DNA from: Phycisphaeraceae bacterium
Lineage (GTDB): Bacteria > Planctomycetota > Phycisphaerae > Phycisphaerales > Phycisphaeraceae
Assembly (NCBI GenBank): GCA_007119405.1
Contig: SKPT01000290.1
Coordinates: forward strand, 1 to 11,042
Direction of reading: 5' to 3'
DNA: 11,042 bases
The notes beneath the pieces were generated by a model that was given only the letters and a program-made list of their open reading frames with translations, searched no databases and had not been told where the DNA came from. Both the position numbers and the translations under genes were made by a program. Positions 1,651 to 9,996 of this stretch are shown here, in pieces (the first letter of the stretch is position 1; each line of letters begins with the position of its first letter).

Positions 1651-1882
1651 TAGCCACAGATGAACACCGATGAACATGGATGGGTAGAACGGTGGGCGTT
1701 GCCGCCGCTTGCGGCTTCGCGAAGTCGCAAGCGGCGGCAACGTCCAGCCGATACGCAAGCTGGAAAGGGCAGCAATGCACGAAGGGATCGGAACCCCGCA
1801 CGCTTTTCTGTCTGTTCGCTTCCTGGTTTCCTCGCTTGCTTATTGGTTCCTTGTCTGTGTTCATCCGTGTTCATCTGTGGCT
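1651..1882. repeat. Fold-back repeat element E1
   Basis: This 232-bp element has inverted arms at 1651-1682 and 1853-1882. Each arm starts AGCCAC and continues with about three RGATGAACAC decamers; the arms match apart from a few mismatches and the inner end. The interior holds the 46-bp palindrome at 1697-1742 and a pyrimidine-rich stretch (CTTCCTGGTTTCC, then GGTTCCTTG) next to the right arm. The element fills most of the 340-bp gap between the two exported-protein genes. The remaining 1883-1977 shows no clear promoter, only the ribosome site of the next gene. No target-site duplication is visible. Confidence 0.9.
1697..1742. repeat. 46-bp palindrome centred on TTCGCGAA inside E1
   Basis: Arms of 23 bp meet with no loop and only one mismatch (C in the left arm against T, read as G·T). 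The outer part reads CGTTGCCGCCGCTTGCGG and the centre TTCGCGAA. It looks like two opposed copies of a smaller motif also seen at 4246-4269, 6631-6656 and 6796-6820. As RNA it would form a very stable hairpin; as DNA it could extrude as a cruciform. There is no T-tract. Confidence 0.85.
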
Positions 1883-1965
1883 GAGGCGACGGTCCATGAA
1901 GCAGGAGGGCATGCGGCCGAGTTGGTCTCGCGGAGGCCTTGGCTGCACGCCGGTTCACGCAGTTC

Positions 1966-1970
1966 AGGAG
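1966..1970 (+). promoter_or_regulatory. Ribosome binding site that fixes the start at 1978
   Basis: AGGAG lies 7 nt before ATG 1978. The alternative in-frame TTG at 1939 would place this site inside the coding region and add 13 residues in front of a standard signal peptide, so 1978 is preferred. Confidence 0.7.
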
Positions 1971-1977
1971 TACAGGT

Positions 1978-4008
1978 ATGAAGTGGTTGAGAAGCCTGGT
2001 GTTCTCGGCGGCGGCGGCGGTGCTGGCGACGAGCCCGGTGCAGGCGCAGGAGCGGCTGTTCAATTATCCGATCCTCGCCGACCCCTACCGGGTCGAGGAC
2101 CCTGAGCCGGTAAGCACGATGCGCATCGCCGCGACGCGCAACGGCACCTTCAGCGGCGCGGTGGCGGTCGAATCGGCCGAGGCGATCGAGGGCCTGCGGG
2201 CGTCGATCTCCGAGCTGCGCAGCGACGACGGCGGCGCGATCGACCCCGAGCACGTGCGCGTGCGCTACGCCCTGCCCTGGACGGGCGTGCGCGGCGGGCC
2301 GCCCGGCCTGGACGTGCTCGAGGCCGAGGCGCCGCGCTCGGTCGATCATGCCCAGGACGGCCGCGTGCTCGCGGGCGTGTGGGTGACCGTCGACGTACCC
2401 GCCGACGCCCAGCCGGGCACCTACCAGGGCGAGCTGACGGTCATGGCGCGGGGGCTTGGCCAGGAGACGGTGGACGTGGAGCTGTCGGTCGCCGGCTGGC
2501 GGGCGCCGGACCCGGCGGACTACCGCACGTGGATCGAGATGATCCAGTCGCCCGACACGCTGGCGCTGGAGTACGGGATGGAGCTGTGGTCGGACGAGCA
2601 CTTCGAGTTGATCGCCCGCAGCTTCGACCTGATCAGCCCCACGGGCAGCCGGGTGGCGTACGTGCCGCTGATTCGCCGGACGAACCAGGGGCATTCGGAG
2701 TCGATGCTGCGCTGGGTGCGCAAGGCCGACGGCTCGCTTGAGCCGGACTACACCGTGGTGGAGCGCTACATGGACGTGGTGCAGGAGCATCTGGGCGAGC
2801 CGGAGATCGTGGTGTTTTACGTCTGGGACGCGTACCTGGTAATGGAGTTCCGCGGCTCGACGCGCGAGGAGAAGCCCGAGATCACCGCGGAGGAGGGCTC
2901 GTACGCGTACCAGCAGCAGCGTCGCGCGGTCCAGCAGTGGGAGCGTCGGCAGGAGGGTCTGGCGGTGACGATCGTGGATGAGGCGACGGGAGAGGTCGAG
3001 GACGGGCACATCGAGCTGTACACCGACGAGGGCGCCCGCGAGCGCTGGGAGCCGGTGTTCGCGACGCTGCGCCAGAAGATGGCCGAGCGCGGCCTCGAGG
3101 ACGCGATGGCGCTGGGGATGGTCACGGACCTTGAGCCGCTGCGCGAGGAGGTGGAGTTCTTCAACGAGATCACCGGGCACCTGCCGTGGGTTTCGCACTC
3201 GCACTTCCGCCGCACGCACAACAACCCCTCGCCCAACACGGCGCTGCGCAGCGTCGGTGACATCACCTACGAGGCGCACGCGTACAGCCTGGTCTACCAG
3301 GTGAACCCGGAAGAGGGTCGGCTGTATGGCTGGGACATTCCGGAGCGGCGTGCGTACCTCTGCCGCTTCGGGTTGCTCAACGGCCAGCCGCTGCGCGTGC
3401 GGCAGATGCCGCTGTTGAACATCACAGGCAACCAGCGCGGGGTCGGGCGGCTGGCGGGCGATCTCTGGCCGGCGATCCGCGACAGCCGCGGCCGGCGGCA
3501 GGGCCGGGCCTTCGACCGTTACCCCGAGAACCACTGGCGCGGGATCAACATCAACAACTGGTTTCTCGCGCCGGGCTACGACGGGCCGGTGGCGACCTCG
3601 CGCCTGGAGAACCTGCGCGAAGGCGTGCTGGAATGCGAAGCACGCATCTTCATCGAGCAGGCGCTCATGGACGACCCCTACCGCAGCCGCATCAGCGCCG
3701 AGCTGGCCGACCGTGCCCAGGAAGTGCTTGACGAGCATCACTGGCTGATGTGGCGCAGCATCTGGACGAACGAGGAGGAGCTCCGGAAGCTGGGCCGGAT
3801 CTCCGGCCGCAGCACCTACGAGGCGATCTGGGGCGGGCTCAGCGACGCGGGCGTGGACATGCCCGGGTTCTGGGAGGGCGAGGCGCGGCGCAAGCGCAGC
3901 GAGGAGGGTCGCAAGGGCCTGGACTGGTTCGTCAGCGAGTCCAACTGGCAGGAGGTGACCGAGCGGCTGTACGCGGTCGCCGCGGAGGTGCAGGCGGCGC
4001 TGCAGTAG
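1978..4008 (+). CDS. Exported DUF4091 / glycoside hydrolase 123-like protein
   Basis: This is a 676-residue protein. It starts MKWLRSLVFSAAAAVL and is followed by TSPVQAQ, a standard Sec signal peptide with likely cleavage after AQA near residue 22. An N-terminal beta-rich domain carries the PGTYQGELTV motif (residues 146-155), typical of the domain preceding GH123 and DUF4091 catalytic regions. Near residues 530-560, the sequence APGYDGP followed by SRLENLREGVLE matches the DUF4091 signature (of the type SIRxExLREGxxDYE). The middle section, about 175-500, is aromatic-rich and probably forms the barrel. GH123 and its relatives remove N-acetylhexosamines; that activity is not shown here and I could not assign catalytic acids with confidence. 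The gene ends at TAG 4006-4008 with its own terminator, and a convergent small gene lies beyond repeat E2. Confidence 0.82.
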   Translation: MKWLRSLVFSAAAAVLATSPVQAQERLFNYPILADPYRVEDPEPVSTMRIAATRNGTFSGAVAVESAEAIEGLRASISELRSDDGGAIDPEHVRVRYALPWTGVRGGPPGLDVLEAEAPRSVDHAQDGRVLAGVWVTVDVPADAQPGTYQGELTVMARGLGQETVDVELSVAGWRAPDPADYRTWIEMIQSPDTLALEYGMELWSDEHFELIARSFDLISPTGSRVAYVPLIRRTNQGHSESMLRWVRKADGSLEPDYTVVERYMDVVQEHLGEPEIVVFYVWDAYLVMEFRGSTREEKPEITAEEGSYAYQQQRRAVQQWERRQEGLAVTIVDEATGEVEDGHIELYTDEGARERWEPVFATLRQKMAERGLEDAMALGMVTDLEPLREEVEFFNEITGHLPWVSHSHFRRTHNNPSPNTALRSVGDITYEAHAYSLVYQVNPEEGRLYGWDIPERRAYLCRFGLLNGQPLRVRQMPLLNITGNQRGVGRLAGDLWPAIRDSRGRRQGRAFDRYPENHWRGININNWFLAPGYDGPVATSRLENLREGVLECEARIFIEQALMDDPYRSRISAELADRAQEVLDEHHWLMWRSIWTNEEELRKLGRISGRSTYEAIWGGLSDAGVDMPGFWEGEARRKRSEEGRKGLDWFVSESNWQEVTERLYAVAAEVQAALQ

Positions 4009-4035
4009 GCGACGCCCAATAAACGCAGCGATTCC

Positions 4036-4070
4036 AAGCCCACGGGTGCTCGCGCCCGTGGGCTTTTTTT
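4036..4070 (+). terminator. Intrinsic terminator of the DUF4091-like gene
   Basis: A perfect 11-bp stem, AAGCCCACGGG (4036-4046) with CCCGTGGGCTT (4055-4065), encloses an 8-nt loop and runs into seven T's (4064-4070). It lies 27 bp after the stop codon. It is one of only two clear rho-independent terminators in the window. Confidence 0.92.
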
Positions 4071-4087
4071 GTGCGCCATGCATGGTG

Positions 4088-4327
4088 AGCCACAGATCAA
4101 CACGGATGAACACGGATAAGAAGCAATAAGGAAGGCAGGAAGGCAGGAAGGGGAGGATTGTGCGGTGGTTGGGTTGGGGCGTTTCGTGGGTCCTTGTCCT
4201 TCCCGGGTTCCTTATCTGTTCCGTGCGGGTTGGGGTTGTCGGTGGGTTTCGCGAAGCCGCGAGCGGCTTGGGGCAGGGTCATACTCCTCTGTCTCTTATC
4301 CGTGTTCATTTGTGTTCATTCGTGGCT
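4088..4327. repeat. Fold-back repeat element E2
   Basis: This 240-bp element has arms at 4088-4120 and 4295-4327, both starting AGCCAC from the outside and ending CACGGATAAG on the inside. Next to the left arm is a purine run with an 8-bp period (GGCAGGAA repeated, 4129-4154). The interior has a pyrimidine stretch (CCTTCCCGGGTTCCTTAT, 4198-4215) and one copy of the TTCGCGAA-type hairpin (4246-4269). It lies between convergent genes. The TAG stop of the small minus-strand gene is formed by the outer end of the right arm. One left-arm decamer is altered to GATCAACAC. Confidence 0.9.
4246..4269. repeat. TTCGCGAA-type hairpin motif in E2
   Basis: GTTTCGCGAAGCCGC followed by GAGCGGCTT gives a 7-bp stem (AAGCCGC with GCGGCTT) around a 2-nt loop, preceded by the TTCGCGAA palindrome. 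It matches the copy at 6797-6820 at all but one position. Confidence 0.7.
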
Positions 4328-4601
4328 ATTCTCCAAGCGGTGCAAAGAGGTCGCCCTGCTCGTCGAGTCGTTGGATGACGTGCGCGGGGCTGGAGGTCGG
4401 CGGCGGGGTGTCGGGGTTGTCGAGCCAAGCGGTGAGATCGTGCCAGGCCATGGAGGCGGAGACGCGCGGCACGGGCTGGGCGCGGGGCCGCTGCGCACGG
4501 CTTGCCGCTTCGCGGACAAGGCGCGGCACCCGGCGGGACGGTTTGACCACGGCGGGGCCCGGCGGTAGACTTGCCGCGCCCCGGGAGAGGTGTTGCCTCA
4601 T
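4326..4601 (-). CDS. Small hypothetical protein
   Basis: This 91-residue reading frame on the minus strand has strong G/C at third codon positions (about 80%) and a plausible C-terminal part: MAWHDLTAWLDNP, then HVIQRLDEQGDLFAPLGE. I do not recognise a family. It is Arg/Pro-rich in the middle, with no signal peptide or membrane segment. The ATG at 4601 has only a weak AAGG upstream. A shorter form from ATG 4451 (41 residues) is possible and holds the most protein-like part. Its stop codon falls in the outer end of the right arm of E2. Its start codon overlaps that of the plus-strand leader ORF in a CATG at 4599-4602, and the plus-strand promoter lies inside it, so both cannot be used freely together. 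Confidence 0.4.
   Translation of the reverse strand: MRQHLSRGAASLPPGPAVVKPSRRVPRLVREAASRAQRPRAQPVPRVSASMAWHDLTAWLDNPDTPPPTSSPAHVIQRLDEQGDLFAPLGE
4543..4571 (+). promoter_or_regulatory. Sigma-70-type promoter upstream of the leader ORF and ABC genes
   Basis: TTGACC (4543-4548) and TAGACT (4566-4571) are separated by exactly 17 bp. They match the TTGACA and TATAAT consensus at 5 of 6 and 4 of 6 positions. Transcription would begin near 4578, just before a GGGAGAGG ribosome site (4583-4590) and the leader ATG at 4600. Confidence 0.5.
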
Positions 4602-4665
4602 GACGATGAACCTTGGCGTCAAGATTTTCGTGAATCGGCTGCGGCTGCGGGTCGGCAGCGGATAG
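4600..4665 (+). CDS. Possible 21-residue leader peptide
   Basis: This short frame reads MTMNLGVKIFVNRL then RLRVGSG and stops at TAG 4663-4665. A purine-rich ribosome site, GGGAGAGG (4583-4590), stands 9 nt before the ATG. A sigma-70-like promoter lies upstream and an intrinsic terminator begins 35 nt downstream, before the ABC exporter genes. Three Arg CGG codons alternate with Leu CTG near its end (4636-4650). This layout is that of an attenuator leader or of a very small standalone gene. The peptide itself matches nothing I know, and chance cannot be excluded for so short a frame. Confidence 0.33.
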   Translation: MTMNLGVKIFVNRLRLRVGSG

Positions 4666-4699
4666 CGTTCGCATGGAGCATGAACCTGTCCGATGACGC

Positions 4700-4730
4700 A
4701 CCCGCTCGGCCGATGGCCGGCGGGTTTTTT
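4700..4730 (+). terminator. Intrinsic terminator between leader ORF and ABC exporter genes
   Basis: ACCCGC (4700-4705), a bulged T, CGGCC, loop GAT, GGCCG and GCGGGT (4720-4725) form an 11-bp stem ending in a run of six T's (4725-4730). It lies 53 bp before the ABC subunit start at 4783, so it would either end a short transcript or act as an attenuator. The 3' arm hexamer GCGGGT also occurs inside the leader ORF at 4647-4652 and could compete for the 5' arm. Confidence 0.8.
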
Positions 4731-4782
4731 CGTGGCGTCGTGCCTATCGTCGGGCGACGCCGGAGCGAGCAGGTCGCAAGCG

Positions 4783-6600
4783 ATGTCGATCGGGTACCGG
4801 ACGAGCACGTTGTGGCACGTGATGGCCGGGCAGCGGTTGCGCTACAGCGCGGCCGTGGCGGCGATGCTCGGCGCCACGGTCGTGGGCTACCTCGAGCCGC
4901 TCATCCCCGCGCTGGTCATCGACGGGCTGATCCGCGACGACCTGGAGGCGAGCCCGGCGATCGTGGTGTACCTCGTGGAGCTGCTCGGCGGGCGCGAGTT
5001 CCTGGTGGCGAACCTCTGGCTGCCCGCGGTGCTGCTGGTGGGGCTGATGCTCGTCGCCGGGTCCATGCACTTCCTGCGCGCCCGCCTCGCCGCCCAGGCC
5101 AGCGAGACCGTCTGCCGCAACCTGCGCAACCGGCTCTACAGCCACCTGCAGGCGCTGCCGGCGGCGTACCACGAGAGCGTGGAGACCGGCGACATCGTCC
5201 AGCGCTGCACCAGCGACGTCGAGACGCTGCGCATGTTCCTGGCCCAGCAGGTGGTGGAGATCGGCCGGGCGGTGCTGCTGCTGGTGGCCGTCGTGCCCTT
5301 CATGCTCTGGATCGACGCGACCATGACGCTCGTGGCGCTGGTGATGATCCCGGTAATCGTCGTCTTCGCGACGGTGTTCTTCCTGGCGGTGAAGCGCATC
5401 TTCCGCCAGGCCGACGAGGCCGAGGGACGCATGACCGGGCGATTGCAGGAGAACCTGACCGCCATCCGCGTCGTGCGGGCGTTCGCCCGGCAGGACTACG
5501 AAAAGCAGCGCTTCGCCGGGCTCAACCAGGCCTATCGCGACCATCAGCAGCGGCTTTACAACATCATGGCGGCCTACTGGTCGAGCACGGACTTCCTGTG
5601 CCTGATCCAGCTCGGCCTGGTGCTGGTGGTCGGCGGGTGGCGCGTGATGCACGGCGAGCTGTCGCCCGGGGCGCTGTTCGCGTTCCTGGCGTACGTGAAC
5701 ATGCTGCTCTGGCCCATCCGCCAGATGGGGCGGATCCTCACCGACTCGGGCAAGGCGGTGGTGGCGATCGGGCGCATCGGCGAAATCCTCGACGAGCAGG
5801 CGGAGCGCGACCCGCCTCCCGATCGGCGCGCCACGCTGCCCGAGCCGGTCCAGGGCCGCATCGAGCTGGCGGGCGTCAGCTTCGCCTACGACGGCGAACC
5901 GCCGGTCATCGACGACGTGTCGCTGACGATCGAGCCCGGGCAGACGCTGGCGATCCTCGGGCCCAGTGGCGCGGGCAAGTCGACGCTCGTGCAGTTGATG
6001 CTGCGCCTGCACGACCCGCAGGCCGGACGCATTCACCTCGACGGCGTGCCGATCGACACGCTGCCGCGGATGCAGGTGCGTCGGCAGTTCGGCGTGGTGC
6101 TTCAGGAGCCGTTCCTCTATTCGCGGACGGTCAGCGAGAACATCCGCCTCGGCCAATGGAGCGCGACGCCGGATCAGCTCATCGAGGCGTCGACGTCCGC
6201 GGCCGTGCACGAGGCAATCGAGAGCTTCGTCGCCGGGTACGACACGGTCGTCGGCGAGCGGGGAGCGCGCGTCTCGGGCGGGCAGCGCCAGCGCATCGCG
6301 CTGGCGCGGGCGCTGATCAAGGACCCGCCGGTGCTCGTGCTCGATGACGCGCTCTCGGCCGTGGACACGCAGACGGAGCGGGTGATCCTCAAGGCCCTGC
6401 GGCGCCGCCACGCCAAACGCACGACGATCGTGATCGCGCATCGCCTCTCGACGCTGATGGAGGCGGACCGAATCATCGTGCTCGATCACGGGCGCATCGT
6501 CCAGCAGGGCACGCACGAGACGCTGGTGCGCGAGGACGGGCTGTATCGCCGGCTGTGGGCGATACAGAATGAGGAAATAGCCACCAATGAACACCAATGA
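4783..6600 (+). CDS. ABC exporter half-transporter, subunit with degenerate ATP site
   Basis: This 605-residue fused membrane/ATPase protein has about six membrane segments in residues 20-300, then an ATP-binding domain from about 355. Motifs seen are Walker A GPSGAGKST (393-401), Q-loop Q441, signature VSGGQ (497-501), Walker B VLVLDD (517-522) and H-loop H553 in IAHRLST. The residue after the Walker B Asp is Asp522 instead of the catalytic Glu. That is typical of the degenerate half of heterodimeric exporters such as TM287/288 or BmrCD. The partner gene follows downstream. Start at ATG 4783 gives the usual length; an earlier in-frame ATG at 4693 would add 30 residues, reading through the terminator stem. 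The original stop seems lost: the last residues (ATNEHQ) are encoded by the left arm of repeat E3. The transported substrate is unknown. Confidence 0.93.
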   Translation: MSIGYRTSTLWHVMAGQRLRYSAAVAAMLGATVVGYLEPLIPALVIDGLIRDDLEASPAIVVYLVELLGGREFLVANLWLPAVLLVGLMLVAGSMHFLRARLAAQASETVCRNLRNRLYSHLQALPAAYHESVETGDIVQRCTSDVETLRMFLAQQVVEIGRAVLLLVAVVPFMLWIDATMTLVALVMIPVIVVFATVFFLAVKRIFRQADEAEGRMTGRLQENLTAIRVVRAFARQDYEKQRFAGLNQAYRDHQQRLYNIMAAYWSSTDFLCLIQLGLVLVVGGWRVMHGELSPGALFAFLAYVNMLLWPIRQMGRILTDSGKAVVAIGRIGEILDEQAERDPPPDRRATLPEPVQGRIELAGVSFAYDGEPPVIDDVSLTIEPGQTLAILGPSGAGKSTLVQLMLRLHDPQAGRIHLDGVPIDTLPRMQVRRQFGVVLQEPFLYSRTVSENIRLGQWSATPDQLIEASTSAAVHEAIESFVAGYDTVVGERGARVSGGQRQRIALARALIKDPPVLVLDDALSAVDTQTERVILKALRRRHAKRTTIVIAHRLSTLMEADRIIVLDHGRIVQQGTHETLVREDGLYRRLWAIQNEEIATNEHQ

Positions 6601-6630
6601 ACACGGATGGGAAGCCGGTGTGCAACCCGC

Positions 6631-6656
6631 AGCCGCTCGCGGCTTCGCGAAGCGCT
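6631..6656. repeat. TTCGCGAA-type motif in E3, first (inverted) copy
   Basis: AGCCGCTCGCGGCT folds with a 2-nt loop and is followed by the perfect 12-bp palindrome GCTTCGCGAAGC (6642-6653). It is the reverse complement of the motif at 6796-6820 with a few changes. Confidence 0.65.
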
Positions 6657-6795
6657 ACGGCGGGCGATCGGGTAACCCCGCGAGTGCACCAACGTGGCGG
6701 CAACGGTGGACCTCGATGCCTGCGTGCATGGTTCCTGCATTCCTGCGCTTCCTGGGTTCCTTATTCGCCGTTTCGAGAACCCCCGGTCATCGGGC

Positions 6796-6820
6796 GGTTT
6801 CGCGAAGCCGCAAGCGGCTT
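6796..6820. repeat. TTCGCGAA-type motif in E3, second copy
   Basis: GGTTTCGCGAAGCCGC then AAGCGGCTT gives a 7-bp stem with an AA loop next to TTCGCGAA. It is nearly identical to the E2 copy at 4246-4269. Confidence 0.7.
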
Positions 6821-6872
6821 TCCTGTTTGTGTTCATTCGTGTTCATTCGTGGCTCTTTACGGAACGTCGGCC

Positions 6873-8729
6873 GTGGCTGATGACGCGATACTCAACGAGC
6901 GATTGCCCACGCGGCTGAACGTGGGGCTGTGGCGCAAGATTCTCGCGTACGCCCGGCCGTACTACCCGCTGCTGGCGGTGCTGATGACGCTGGGCGTGGT
7001 CGTCGCGGCGGCGGACACCGTGCTGCCGCTGCTGATCCGCTACGTCTTCGACACCGCCCTGCTGGCCGAGGACACCCGCCCGCTGTGGCTGGCGGGCCTG
7101 GCGTTCGCCGCGATCATCACGACGCTCGCCGGCTCCGTGATGGTGTTCATCCACATCGCCGGGCGGATCTCCAACGGCCTGTCGCACGACATCCGCCGGG
7201 CGGCGTTCGCCCGGCTCCAGGAGCTCGACTTCTCCTTCTACGACCACCACGCCACGGGCTGGCTGATGGCCCGACTCACCAGCGACTGCGACCGCCTCTC
7301 ACGCGTCATCGGCTGGGCGCTGCTGGACATCACCTGGGGCACCTGCCTGGTCTGCGGCGTCGCGGTGCTCATGCTCATCGTCGACTGGCCCACCGCGCTG
7401 GCGGTGCTGGCGGTCGTGCCCGTGCTGCTGGGCATCAGCGCCTACTTTCAGCGCAAGATCCTGCTCTCGTCGCGCGACATGCGGCGGATCAACTCGCACC
7501 TGACCTCCGAGTTCAACGAAGCCATGAGCGGGATGAAGACCACCAAGACGCTGACACGCGAGGCAGAGAACTTCGACGAGTTCACCGGCCACTCGGGCGG
7601 GATGTACCACGCGTCCATGCGCAACGCGATGCAGACGGCCGTGTTCCTGCCGCTCGTGCTCGTGCTCGTGTCGCTGGGCGAGAGCATGGCGCTGGCGGTC
7701 GGCGGCAGCCGGGCGCTGACCGGCGCGATCACCGTCGGCACGCTGGCGAGCTTTCTCTACTACGCCAAGCTCCTGCCCGACCCGATCCGCGAGGTGGCGC
7801 GGATGATGACCGAGGCCCTGGCCGCGCAGGCGGCGGCGGAGCGCGTCTTCACGCTGCTGGAGACCGAGCCGGGCATCCAGGACCGCCCGCACGTCATCGA
7901 GGCGATGCGCCGCCACGCCGCCAGCGACCAGGCGGGCGACCCGTCGCGGGGGGTCGATGGCCTGCCGAATCGCCTGGGCGTGATCGAGTTCCAGCACGTC
8001 GGCTTCGCCTACGAGTCCGACAAGCCGGTCCTCGAAGACTTCAACCTGCGCGTCGAGCCCGGGCAGACGATCGCCCTCGTCGGCCCCACCGGCGGAGGCA
8101 AGTCGACGATCGTAAACCTGCTGTGCCGCTTCTACGAGCCGACCAGCGGCCGCATCCTCTTCGACGGCGTCGACTACCGCGACCGATCGCTGGCGTGGCT
8201 GCAGTCGAACCTGGGCATCGTGCTTCAGGCGCCGCAGCTTTTCTCCGGCTCGGTGCGTGAGAACATCCGCTACGGCCGGCTCGATGCCAGCGACGCGGAG
8301 GTCGAGGCGGCCGCCAGAACGGTCGACGCCCACCGCTTCATCATGGAGCTCGAGGCCGGCTACGCCACGGACGTCGGGCAGGCGGGCAATCGGCTCTCGA
8401 CGGGGCAGAAGCAGCTCATCGCCTTCGCCCGGGCGGTGCTCGCCCAGCCGCAGCTTTTCGTGATGGACGAGGCGACCGCCTCGGTGGACACGGAGACGGA
8501 GCAGACGATCCAGGCGGCGATGCACCAGGTGCTCCAGGGGCGCACCAGCTTCGTGATCGCCCATCGCCTCTCAACGATCCGCGCCGCGGACCGCATCCTC
8601 GTGATCGAAGCCGGCCGCATCGCGGAGATGGGCACGCACCGCGAGCTGCTTCAGCGGCGCGGGCGGTACTTCGAGCTGTACACGGGCCAGTTCACGCGGG
8701 AGCAGACGGAGATGATGCTGCGGGAGTAG
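6873..8729 (+). CDS. ABC exporter half-transporter, subunit with catalytic Glu
   Basis: This is a 618-residue protein from GTG 6873 (VADDAILNERLP), with six membrane segments in about residues 25-310 and a C-terminal ATPase domain. Motifs: Walker A GPTGGGKST (404-412), Q-loop Q452, signature LSTGQ (508-512), Walker B LFVMDE (528-533) with catalytic Glu533, and H-loop H564. The signature deviates from LSGGQ while Walker B is complete, the mirror image of the upstream partner. In a heterodimer, this LSTGQ would face the partner's degenerate Walker B, giving one inactive and one active ATP site. The frame stays open upstream to ATG 6597, but those 92 residues only translate repeat E3. The ribosome site for GTG 6873 is weak (CGGA about 8 nt upstream), so TTG 6903 and GTG 6849 remain possible. 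The gene ends 4 bp before E4. Confidence 0.92.
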   Translation: MADDAILNERLPTRLNVGLWRKILAYARPYYPLLAVLMTLGVVVAAADTVLPLLIRYVFDTALLAEDTRPLWLAGLAFAAIITTLAGSVMVFIHIAGRISNGLSHDIRRAAFARLQELDFSFYDHHATGWLMARLTSDCDRLSRVIGWALLDITWGTCLVCGVAVLMLIVDWPTALAVLAVVPVLLGISAYFQRKILLSSRDMRRINSHLTSEFNEAMSGMKTTKTLTREAENFDEFTGHSGGMYHASMRNAMQTAVFLPLVLVLVSLGESMALAVGGSRALTGAITVGTLASFLYYAKLLPDPIREVARMMTEALAAQAAAERVFTLLETEPGIQDRPHVIEAMRRHAASDQAGDPSRGVDGLPNRLGVIEFQHVGFAYESDKPVLEDFNLRVEPGQTIALVGPTGGGKSTIVNLLCRFYEPTSGRILFDGVDYRDRSLAWLQSNLGIVLQAPQLFSGSVRENIRYGRLDASDAEVEAAARTVDAHRFIMELEAGYATDVGQAGNRLSTGQKQLIAFARAVLAQPQLFVMDEATASVDTETEQTIQAAMHQVLQGRTSFVIAHRLSTIRAADRILVIEAGRIAEMGTHRELLQRRGRYFELYTGQFTREQTEMMLRE

Positions 8730-8733
8730 GGAA

Positions 8734-8906
8734 TAGCCACAGATGAACACGGATGAACACAGATGAAGGCCGGATGAGCAAGGCAGCAAGGGACTCGCGG
8801 CAGGAAGAAGAGCGAGGTCGGCAGGTCTCCTTCCTGCATTCCTGACCCTCCTGGGTTCCTTATCCTCTTCTTCTTATCTGTGTTCATCCGTGTTCATCTG
8901 TGGCTA
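8734..8906. repeat. Fold-back repeat element E4
   Basis: This 173-bp element is the shortest and best preserved: the outer 31 bp of its arms (8734-8764 and 8876-8906) are perfect reverse complements. The pyrimidine tract TTCCTGCAT, TCCTGACCC, TCCTGGGT, TCCTTAT (8830-8863) has a 9-bp period and closely matches E3. It has no TTCGCGAA motif. It fills the gap between convergent genes, starting 4 bp after the ABC stop and ending 7 bp before the stop of the minus-strand YihY-like gene. No other terminator is visible for either gene. Confidence 0.93.
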
Positions 8907-8913
8907 TATTCGC

Positions 8914-9870: not shown

Positions 9871-9984
9871 AGCCAGGGAAGTCGAGGAAGTCAGGGAAGT
9901 CGGGGAAGTCGAGGAGGTGTCTCAAGGCGCAGGGCATCAGGTTCGCCCTCCTCGACTCCCCTGACTCCCCTCGGTCCCTCCACC
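9871..9984. repeat. Fold-back repeat with 9-bp period
   Basis: The left half (9871-9917) is about five tandem copies of an AGTCRRGGA nonamer. The right half (9949-9984) is the opposite-strand version (CTCCCCTGA type). The inner arms GTCGAGGAGG (9908-9917) and CCTCCTCGAC (9947-9956) pair perfectly around a 29-nt loop; the outer parts pair imperfectly. It ends 12 bp from the stop of the GspE/PilB-like gene, so in that gene's mRNA it would be a 3' purine/pyrimidine hairpin. It lacks the decamer arms of E1-E4, but its nonamer resembles their inner pyrimidine tracts. Confidence 0.85.
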
Positions 9985-9996
9985 GCCGCGGCGCTG

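Follow-up and report, generated by a model that had tools for sequence, protein, structure and literature searches.

Fold-back elements with word-built arms in a Phycisphaeraceae contig are probably gene-less copies of elements that carry a GxxExxY gene

Positions 1 to 11,042 of contig SKPT01000290.1 from a Phycisphaeraceae bacterium (assembly GCA_007119405.1), a stretch of 11,042 nucleotides that was analysed whole and is called the window here, hold four fold-back elements (E1 to E4) with arms built of a short tandem word, and this raises the question of what such elements are and where they come from. Our answer is that E1 to E4 are probably non-autonomous, gene-less copies of a fold-back element which in its full form consists of a word-built arm, a gene of the GxxExxY family and the same arm inverted; they are placed there by the words in their arms, the cognate gene being known from other genomes and not from the window's own. 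The initial annotation of this DNA overlooked the key part, namely that the full-length form has a GxxExxY nuclease gene between its arms.

The four inverted-repeat pairs were found where the initial annotation had put them (Table 1), with arm complementarity covering 25-39 nt: 96% over 25 nt for E1 (1652-1676/1858-1882), 85% for E2 (4088-4121/4294-4327), 82% for E3 (6575-6613/6820-6858) and 100% over 32 nt for E4 (8733-8764/8876-8907). Their description as one family with decamer-built arms, recurring every 2.2-2.5 kb, is supported: the left arms are 2436, 2491 and 2156 bp apart, and a two-unit arm pattern matched 11 times in the window compared to none in 200 shuffles. The count of three RGATGAACAC units per arm (about 24 copies) was too high, as each arm contains two full decamers and a truncated third; a relaxed unit gives 16 full copies in the eight arms, or two per arm, and the window has 10 exact copies of RGATGAACAC (8 in arms and 2 in genes). 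All eight arms start with AGCCAC followed by tandem words, each with 2-3 CRCNRA[T/G/A] cores at 10-bp spacing, and the GTAG- or CGTC-tagged short palindrome of repetitive extragenic palindromic (REP) sequences, tag names taken from PMC3733652, was not found in them. RNA folding z-scores against shuffles were -12.4, -5.7, -7.3 and -10.4 for E1 to E4 respectively. The common orientation read from the inner tracts was confirmed, the TTCCT-type tract being right-hand in all four (in E1 as read from the sequence). Location in gaps between genes, also claimed, is true of the family, but the left arm of E3 contains the stop codon of the ABC1 gene (6598-6600); E1 starts 14 nt past the stop of an open reading frame (ORF) and E4 occupies the whole space between two convergent genes. 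No Rfam match at or above the gathering score was found in the window.

The statement in the initial annotation that similar words occur in other environmental bacteria proved correct: species genomes contain the exact two-unit word in at least 118 stretches, those listed being named as Planctomycetota, Acidobacteriota, Pseudomonadota, Verrucomicrobia, Anaerolineae and Latescibacterota. Among the matches listed there were 100 arm pairs less than 600 bp apart (spanning 59-558 bp); the element centre fell within an ORF for 15 of 99 pairs compared to 1747 of 1980 random points (ORFs being called by a simple length rule of at least 150 amino acids), the elements lay a median of 12 bp from gene 3' ends, and 14 of 69 were between divergent genes. 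Further copies are very many and avoid genes, and so are neither lacking nor scattered at random through coding sequence. Beyond a short AATT palindrome, some 15 nt on either side of 114 word elements are biased in composition, towards A/G at the left and towards T/C at the right; this may reflect a preference for certain targets or something akin to a terminator. E4 DNA had no match among plasmids or phages; the word was found in 5 stretches of viral contigs, with no GxxExxY gene in the pieces of them searched. Literature searches with the word strings, in a coverage with most subscription papers outside it, gave nothing. Tandem or clustered word elements were seen at three loci (L128, L099 and L091), with 13 arm copies round the GxxExxY gene in L128 and same-strand copies of the word in L099 (7) and L091 (4), suggesting local amplification.

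Some database proteins starting with MNTD, a one-frame reading of GATGAACAC-GAT, belong to the GxxExxY family, and this lead was then tested. TIGR04256 genes were present in all of the first eight word-bearing genomes and, among the matches listed, in 37 of 43 further genomes behind word loci, so that 45 of the 51 exact-word genomes other than the window's own carry a GxxExxY gene. Three genomes of the first eight have the gene flanked on both sides by the window's word (L126, L127 and L134), and L101 is a fourth locus with a GxxExxY gene inside window-word arms; a profile search of L001-L123 gave this one intact gene and remnants in L044, the others being gene-less at that threshold. The M-N of the arm word is in frame ahead of the domain in 7 of 9 proteins, where translation may start. 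The protein between the arms belongs to the family TIGR04256/PF13366, is about 120-140 amino acids long and has a predicted PD-(D/E)XK fold, sharing this predicted fold and an active-site pattern with the Cas4, lambda exonuclease and Hjc nucleases. No PDB sequence matched it at E ≤ 1. A GxxExxY gene is present in 55 of 119 genomes of Planctomycetota and in 48 of 249 of Pseudomonadota, and the L126 protein used as a query matched 8 of 72,556 plasmid records (H1-H8) and none of 50,697 phage records; the elements therefore seem to be chromosomal. Published texts use the GxxExxY name in passing annotation only and report PF13366 as an expanded Pfam in Arctic algae, and no paper tying TIGR04256/PF13366 to flanking repeats or mobility was found in them, subscription papers again lying mostly outside the coverage.

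The arrangement of gene and arms extends well beyond the window's word, as other GxxExxY genes are flanked by different words. A locus was scored as armed when the 300 bp upstream of the gene aligned to the reverse complement of the 300 bp downstream with a score of at least 14. The 159 loci were not a random sample (79 best-scoring and 80 picked from hit lists, 15 of the Planctomycetota ones coming from word-bearing genomes); seven without usable flanks were dropped, and L142 and L143, two hits of one locus, were both counted. Inverted arms were found at 127 of the 152 usable loci, from several phyla, compared to 1 of 141 when sequence 500 bp further out was used and 35 of 750 for mispaired flanks. 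Among the Planctomycetota 54 of 62 loci were armed, 45 with at least four word cores, and a separate Pseudomonadota sample gave 23 of 29 armed (one of 30 loci being unusable), 22 of them with at least four cores. The unit CRCNRA[T/G/A] fits 113 of the 127 armed loci, with a commonest period of 8 bp in 36, 9 bp in 33 and 10 bp in 36. As sister elements of the same architecture use units of 8, 9 or 10 bp, their common logic cannot be one-face binding to B-DNA, and the spacing of one helical turn put forward in the initial annotation does not hold as a principle. For comparison, genes of the REP-associated tyrosine transposase (RAYT; PF01797) were taken with longer, 700-bp flanks from 49 loci of one phylum (one of 30 loci being unusable); inverted repeats were present at 18 of 29 and 14 of 20, most of them palindromes that are rich in GC and resemble REPs, and at least four word cores at 0 of 29 and 1 of 20, that one being a GC palindrome.

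The word co-varies with the protein that it surrounds. On a quick tree of the domain the word core required 27 changes compared to 58.5 ± 2.7 when shuffled (112 loci) and the period 19 compared to 49.4 ± 3.0 (104 loci), values reached by none of 2000 shuffles in either case. Under a stricter word rule (132 loci, 131 with a neighbour), the nearest protein in another genome agreed in core in 98 of 131 cases and in period in 96 of 124, compared to 27% and 33% for random pairs, and 28 of the 29 GAT/10-bp loci had a GAT neighbour. Within genomes that carry at least two labelled genes, core or period differed between the genes in 20 of 23. In 36 Planctomycetota genomes, for which only part of the GxxExxY genes was taken in, at least three genomic arm copies were found in 7 of the 10 with GATGAAC-type words on both sides of the gene compared to 3 of the 26 without (p = 0.0013).

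Derivatives that have kept their arms and lost part of their gene occur beside full elements. Genomes G151 (the window's word; L186 and L044) and G160 (a CACAGAG word; L286) each have a full gene plus remnants inside arms of the same word, lying near the full gene or on another contig, in which the 5' half of the gene is lost and the 3' part kept (profile positions of about 66-113, some shorter), one arm being worn in some L186 copies. It was also observed that these unrelated genomes, with their different words, retain the same C-terminal part of the gene at all three loci. The inner tract of E1 to E4 is of a second word type, CAGGAANG, which 29 of 201 genomes in the order contain and which forms the arms of a GxxExxY locus (L285), and so E1 to E4 look composite or nested. 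A tract related to CAGGAANG also lies inside a GAT-type element of G243 (L271).

Evidence for insertion comes from sites at which relatives lack an element. ABC1 and ABC2 form an operon that is conserved in the order: 30 loci were read, and in all 29 relatives where both genes were found the distance from the ABC1 stop to the ABC2 start is -14 to +70 bp; in the window this gap is 272 bp, with E3 inside it. The closest relatives found have 59% identity in ABC2, and of the eight relatives searched the word was lacking in the three closest (G309, G119 and G171) and two others and present in three. Two orthologous intergenic slots were compared across Geothrix genomes. Slot 1 (28 genomes) holds an element of the word GATGAACAC in 5, CGCAGATGA in 1, CACGAAGACAGGAAGAC in 2 and CACCAAGA in 1, other palindromes in 3, and is empty in 16 (a 27-bp gap); slot 2 (29 genomes) holds GATGAACAC in 1, CGCAGATGA in 6, CACAGATT in 2, CACGAAGAC in 2, CRCAGAGG in 3 and CACCAAGA in 1, and is empty in 13 (15-16 bp), with 34 bp in one further genome. 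Five of these six words are also found as arms round GxxExxY genes of the Geothrix genomes compared (L134 and L295, L292, L184, L135, L139). As one slot can be empty or hold different families, this is best read as repeated insertion. The other palindromes of slot 1 (L363, L375 and L382) lie outside the CRCNRA grammar and are perhaps other kinds of element.

Taken together, the elements are best read as resembling REPINs, the gene-less hairpins made of REP sequences, with a PD-(D/E)XK nuclease in the place of a RAYT as the agent that mobilises them in trans. Mobilisation in trans by GxxExxY is proposed because the organisation matches that of RAYT genes with REPs and REPINs, in having flanking inverted repeats, co-evolution and many gene-less hairpins. 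The nuclease would recognise the words of its own arms, likeliest as a hairpin or cruciform of the single-stranded arms, and would cut at the base of this structure; from its Cas4/Hjc-like fold, structure-specific cutting of extruded arms is the likeliest first step. Cutting would allow the segment to be copied or moved in trans to other intergenic sites, the DNA presumably being rejoined by some route, and one gene copy per word type may support many gene-less copies, as a RAYT is thought to do for REPINs. In the window E3 would have been inserted between ABC1 and ABC2, which relatives have as a tight operon.

Several observations weigh against this reading. PD-(D/E)XK enzymes are not known to join DNA by themselves, and transposition, binding and cleavage by GxxExxY are inferred, not observed. 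With all filters off, no GxxExxY remnant was found in the window or in E1 to E4, and G047, G059 and G087 have 11-22 arm copies but no GxxExxY match; among word-bearing Planctomycetota 11 of 17 have any GxxExxY gene compared to 44 of 102 others, a weak excess. Arms were lacking at 25 of the 152 loci, and 14 of the 127 armed loci fall outside the word grammar and received no label on the tree. Two further letters of the unit track the tree less closely (CAC/CGC with 29 changes compared to 37.0, the fourth letter with 35 compared to 42.9), with 9 and 6 of 2000 shuffles respectively matching the observed values. Because the arms are linked to the gene, shared inheritance without any recognition could account for the co-variation. 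Among 114 flank pairs no target-site duplication was found, the exact ends of the elements being uncertain; the sole clear excess was a 4-base match at one offset (10 compared to 2.9 expected by chance), which we attribute to the AATT that the palindromic ends share.

Some of these points would suit a passenger gene. GxxExxY could be a hairpin-processing nuclease with a housekeeping or defence role, or a gene merely captured by palindromes that spread through host processes such as replication slippage and recombination, and the 6 of 17 word-bearing Planctomycetota without the gene, the armless loci, the missing target-site duplication and the element clusters in L128 and L186, which suggest local recombination, are all in keeping with this. 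We nevertheless consider it unlikely, as the gene is inside arms at 127 of 152 loci in several phyla, and capture alone is unlikely to pair one gene family with many words that co-vary with its protein across genomes. Less likely still is that the elements are domesticated host sequences, such as terminators, mRNA 3' hairpins or protein-binding arrays of the kind that one-face binding would imply. The strong hairpins of E1 to E4, the A-rich left and T-rich right flanks and, among the matches listed, the 84 of 99 elements centred outside ORFs of at least 150 amino acids and the median of 12 bp to gene 3' ends agree with a host function, but in Geothrix the orthologous slots hold other words or are empty (in 16 of 28 and 13 of 29 genomes), 14 of 69 listed elements lie between divergent genes, the unit varies between 8, 9 and 10 bp, and E3 splits an operon. 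A secondary use of the elements by the host is possible.

That the elements are REPINs, or terminal inverted repeats moved by a RAYT-type (Y1 HUH) transposase, is the most improbable of these explanations. The anatomy is REPIN-like, Y1_Tnp is found in 14 of 17 word-bearing Planctomycetota compared to 74 of 119 overall, and PMC3733652 reports long terminal inverted repeats unrelated to REPs beside some RAYT-like genes. The RAYT flanks tested here, however, carry other, mostly GC-rich repeats, with at least four word cores at 1 of 49 loci, and the genome with the highest arm copy number (G049, with 96) has no Y1_Tnp match. A RAYT as the mobiliser is therefore unsupported by the 49 loci tested.

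The positions of the features are collected in Table 1. Three further repeats were noted in the window. A terminator-like hairpin (CCCACGGGTGCTCGCGCCCGTGGGC plus a T run, read by eye) at 4039-4070 directly precedes E2. The third repeat type inside E1 to E3 consists of the palindrome GCGGCTTCGCGAAGCCGC and variants of it at 1693-1746, 4243-4267, 6629-6653 and 6794-6818, for which no link to a gene was made. A further fold-back element at 9872-9992, with a different, 9-bp word (GGGAAGTCR) and arms 74% complementary and 29 nt apart, fills the gap between the BrkB and T2SSE-like genes; few genomes of the order have its word (7 of 201, a reversed control pattern also giving matches) and no gene was linked to it.

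Table 1. Positions of element arms, interior tracts and the two operon genes in the window
Feature	Position	Strand	Basis
E1 left arm, AGCCAC and 10-bp words	1652..1684	+	inverted-repeat and word-pattern scans
E1 interior, near-perfect GC palindrome (GCCGCTTGCGGCTTCG...), third repeat type, also in E2 and E3	1693..1746	.	repeat scan
E1 right arm	1850..1882	-	inverted-repeat and word-pattern scans
E2 left arm, three CRCNRAT cores, period 10	4088..4123	+	inverted-repeat and word-pattern scans
E2 inner word tract, left side, CAGGAANG type; word forms the arms of GxxExxY locus L285	4130..4149	+	
E2 inner tract, right side, TTCCT type	4183..4215	-	repeat scan
E2 right arm	4292..4327	-	inverted-repeat and word-pattern scans
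E3 left arm, contains ABC1 stop codon 6598-6600	6579..6612	+	
E3 inner tract, CAGGAANG type	6732..6764	-	
E3 right arm	6822..6855	-	
E4 left arm, 32 nt, 100% complementary to right arm	8733..8764	+	
E4 inner tract, TTCCT type	8831..8863	-	
E4 right arm, ends 6 nt short of the stop of the convergent BrkB gene	8876..8907	-	
ABC1 gene, upstream partner in the operon split by E3	4693..6600	+	
ABC2 gene, downstream partner; start codon is the analyst's choice; Pfam run on 6870-8729	6873..8729	+	

The gene-less and nuclease-carrying forms point to an unrecognised class of DNA that is probably mobile. Whether this is a new class of mobile DNA, very widespread in bacteria, in which a single small Cas4/Hjc-like nuclease would read the arm word and mobilise its own element and gene-less copies in trans, with lineage-specific words and families competing for slots, is a wider proposal, the chances of which we judge to be evenly balanced. 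It would explain the origin of short intergenic words in Planctomycetota, Acidobacteriota, Pseudomonadota, Verrucomicrobia and others, and would assign a function to GxxExxY, a protein family known only by its motif. As a natural experiment, the co-variation of word and protein over many pairs offers a way to see how the DNA specificity of a compact nuclease changes. DNA mobilisation is generally thought to require a DDE or HUH partner, and if GxxExxY does move DNA it would be a PD-(D/E)XK enzyme acting without either.

Among known systems, miniature inverted-repeat transposable elements (MITEs) of DDE transposons are short, non-autonomous, bounded by terminal inverted repeats and arise by internal deletion. 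The elements described here are like them in all of these respects but have a GxxExxY gene between their arms and not that of a DDE transposase (DDE genes were not searched for), their arms are built of tandem words, and target-site duplication was not found at their ends, which are uncertain. With Cas4, lambda exonuclease and Hjc the protein has the predicted fold and active-site pattern in common but not a PDB sequence match at the threshold used, and TIGR04256/PF13366, to which the gene inside full elements belongs, is not linked to repeats or mobility in the papers found. The closest parallel is the REPIN/RAYT system (REPtron). Such an organisation has been reported for RAYT genes and REPs (Nunvar 2010, PMC2817692) and for REPINs (Bertels and Rainey 2011, PMC3116915); both systems have a small gene with two flanking inverted repeats, intergenic gene-less hairpins, repeats that co-evolve with the protein and an abundance that follows the gene. 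They differ in that the protein is here a predicted PD-(D/E)XK nuclease and there an HUH tyrosine transposase, and in that the arms are here arrays of 8-10 bp words and there short GC palindromes. As neither protein nor repeats are related to those of that system, the GxxExxY elements are not members of it.

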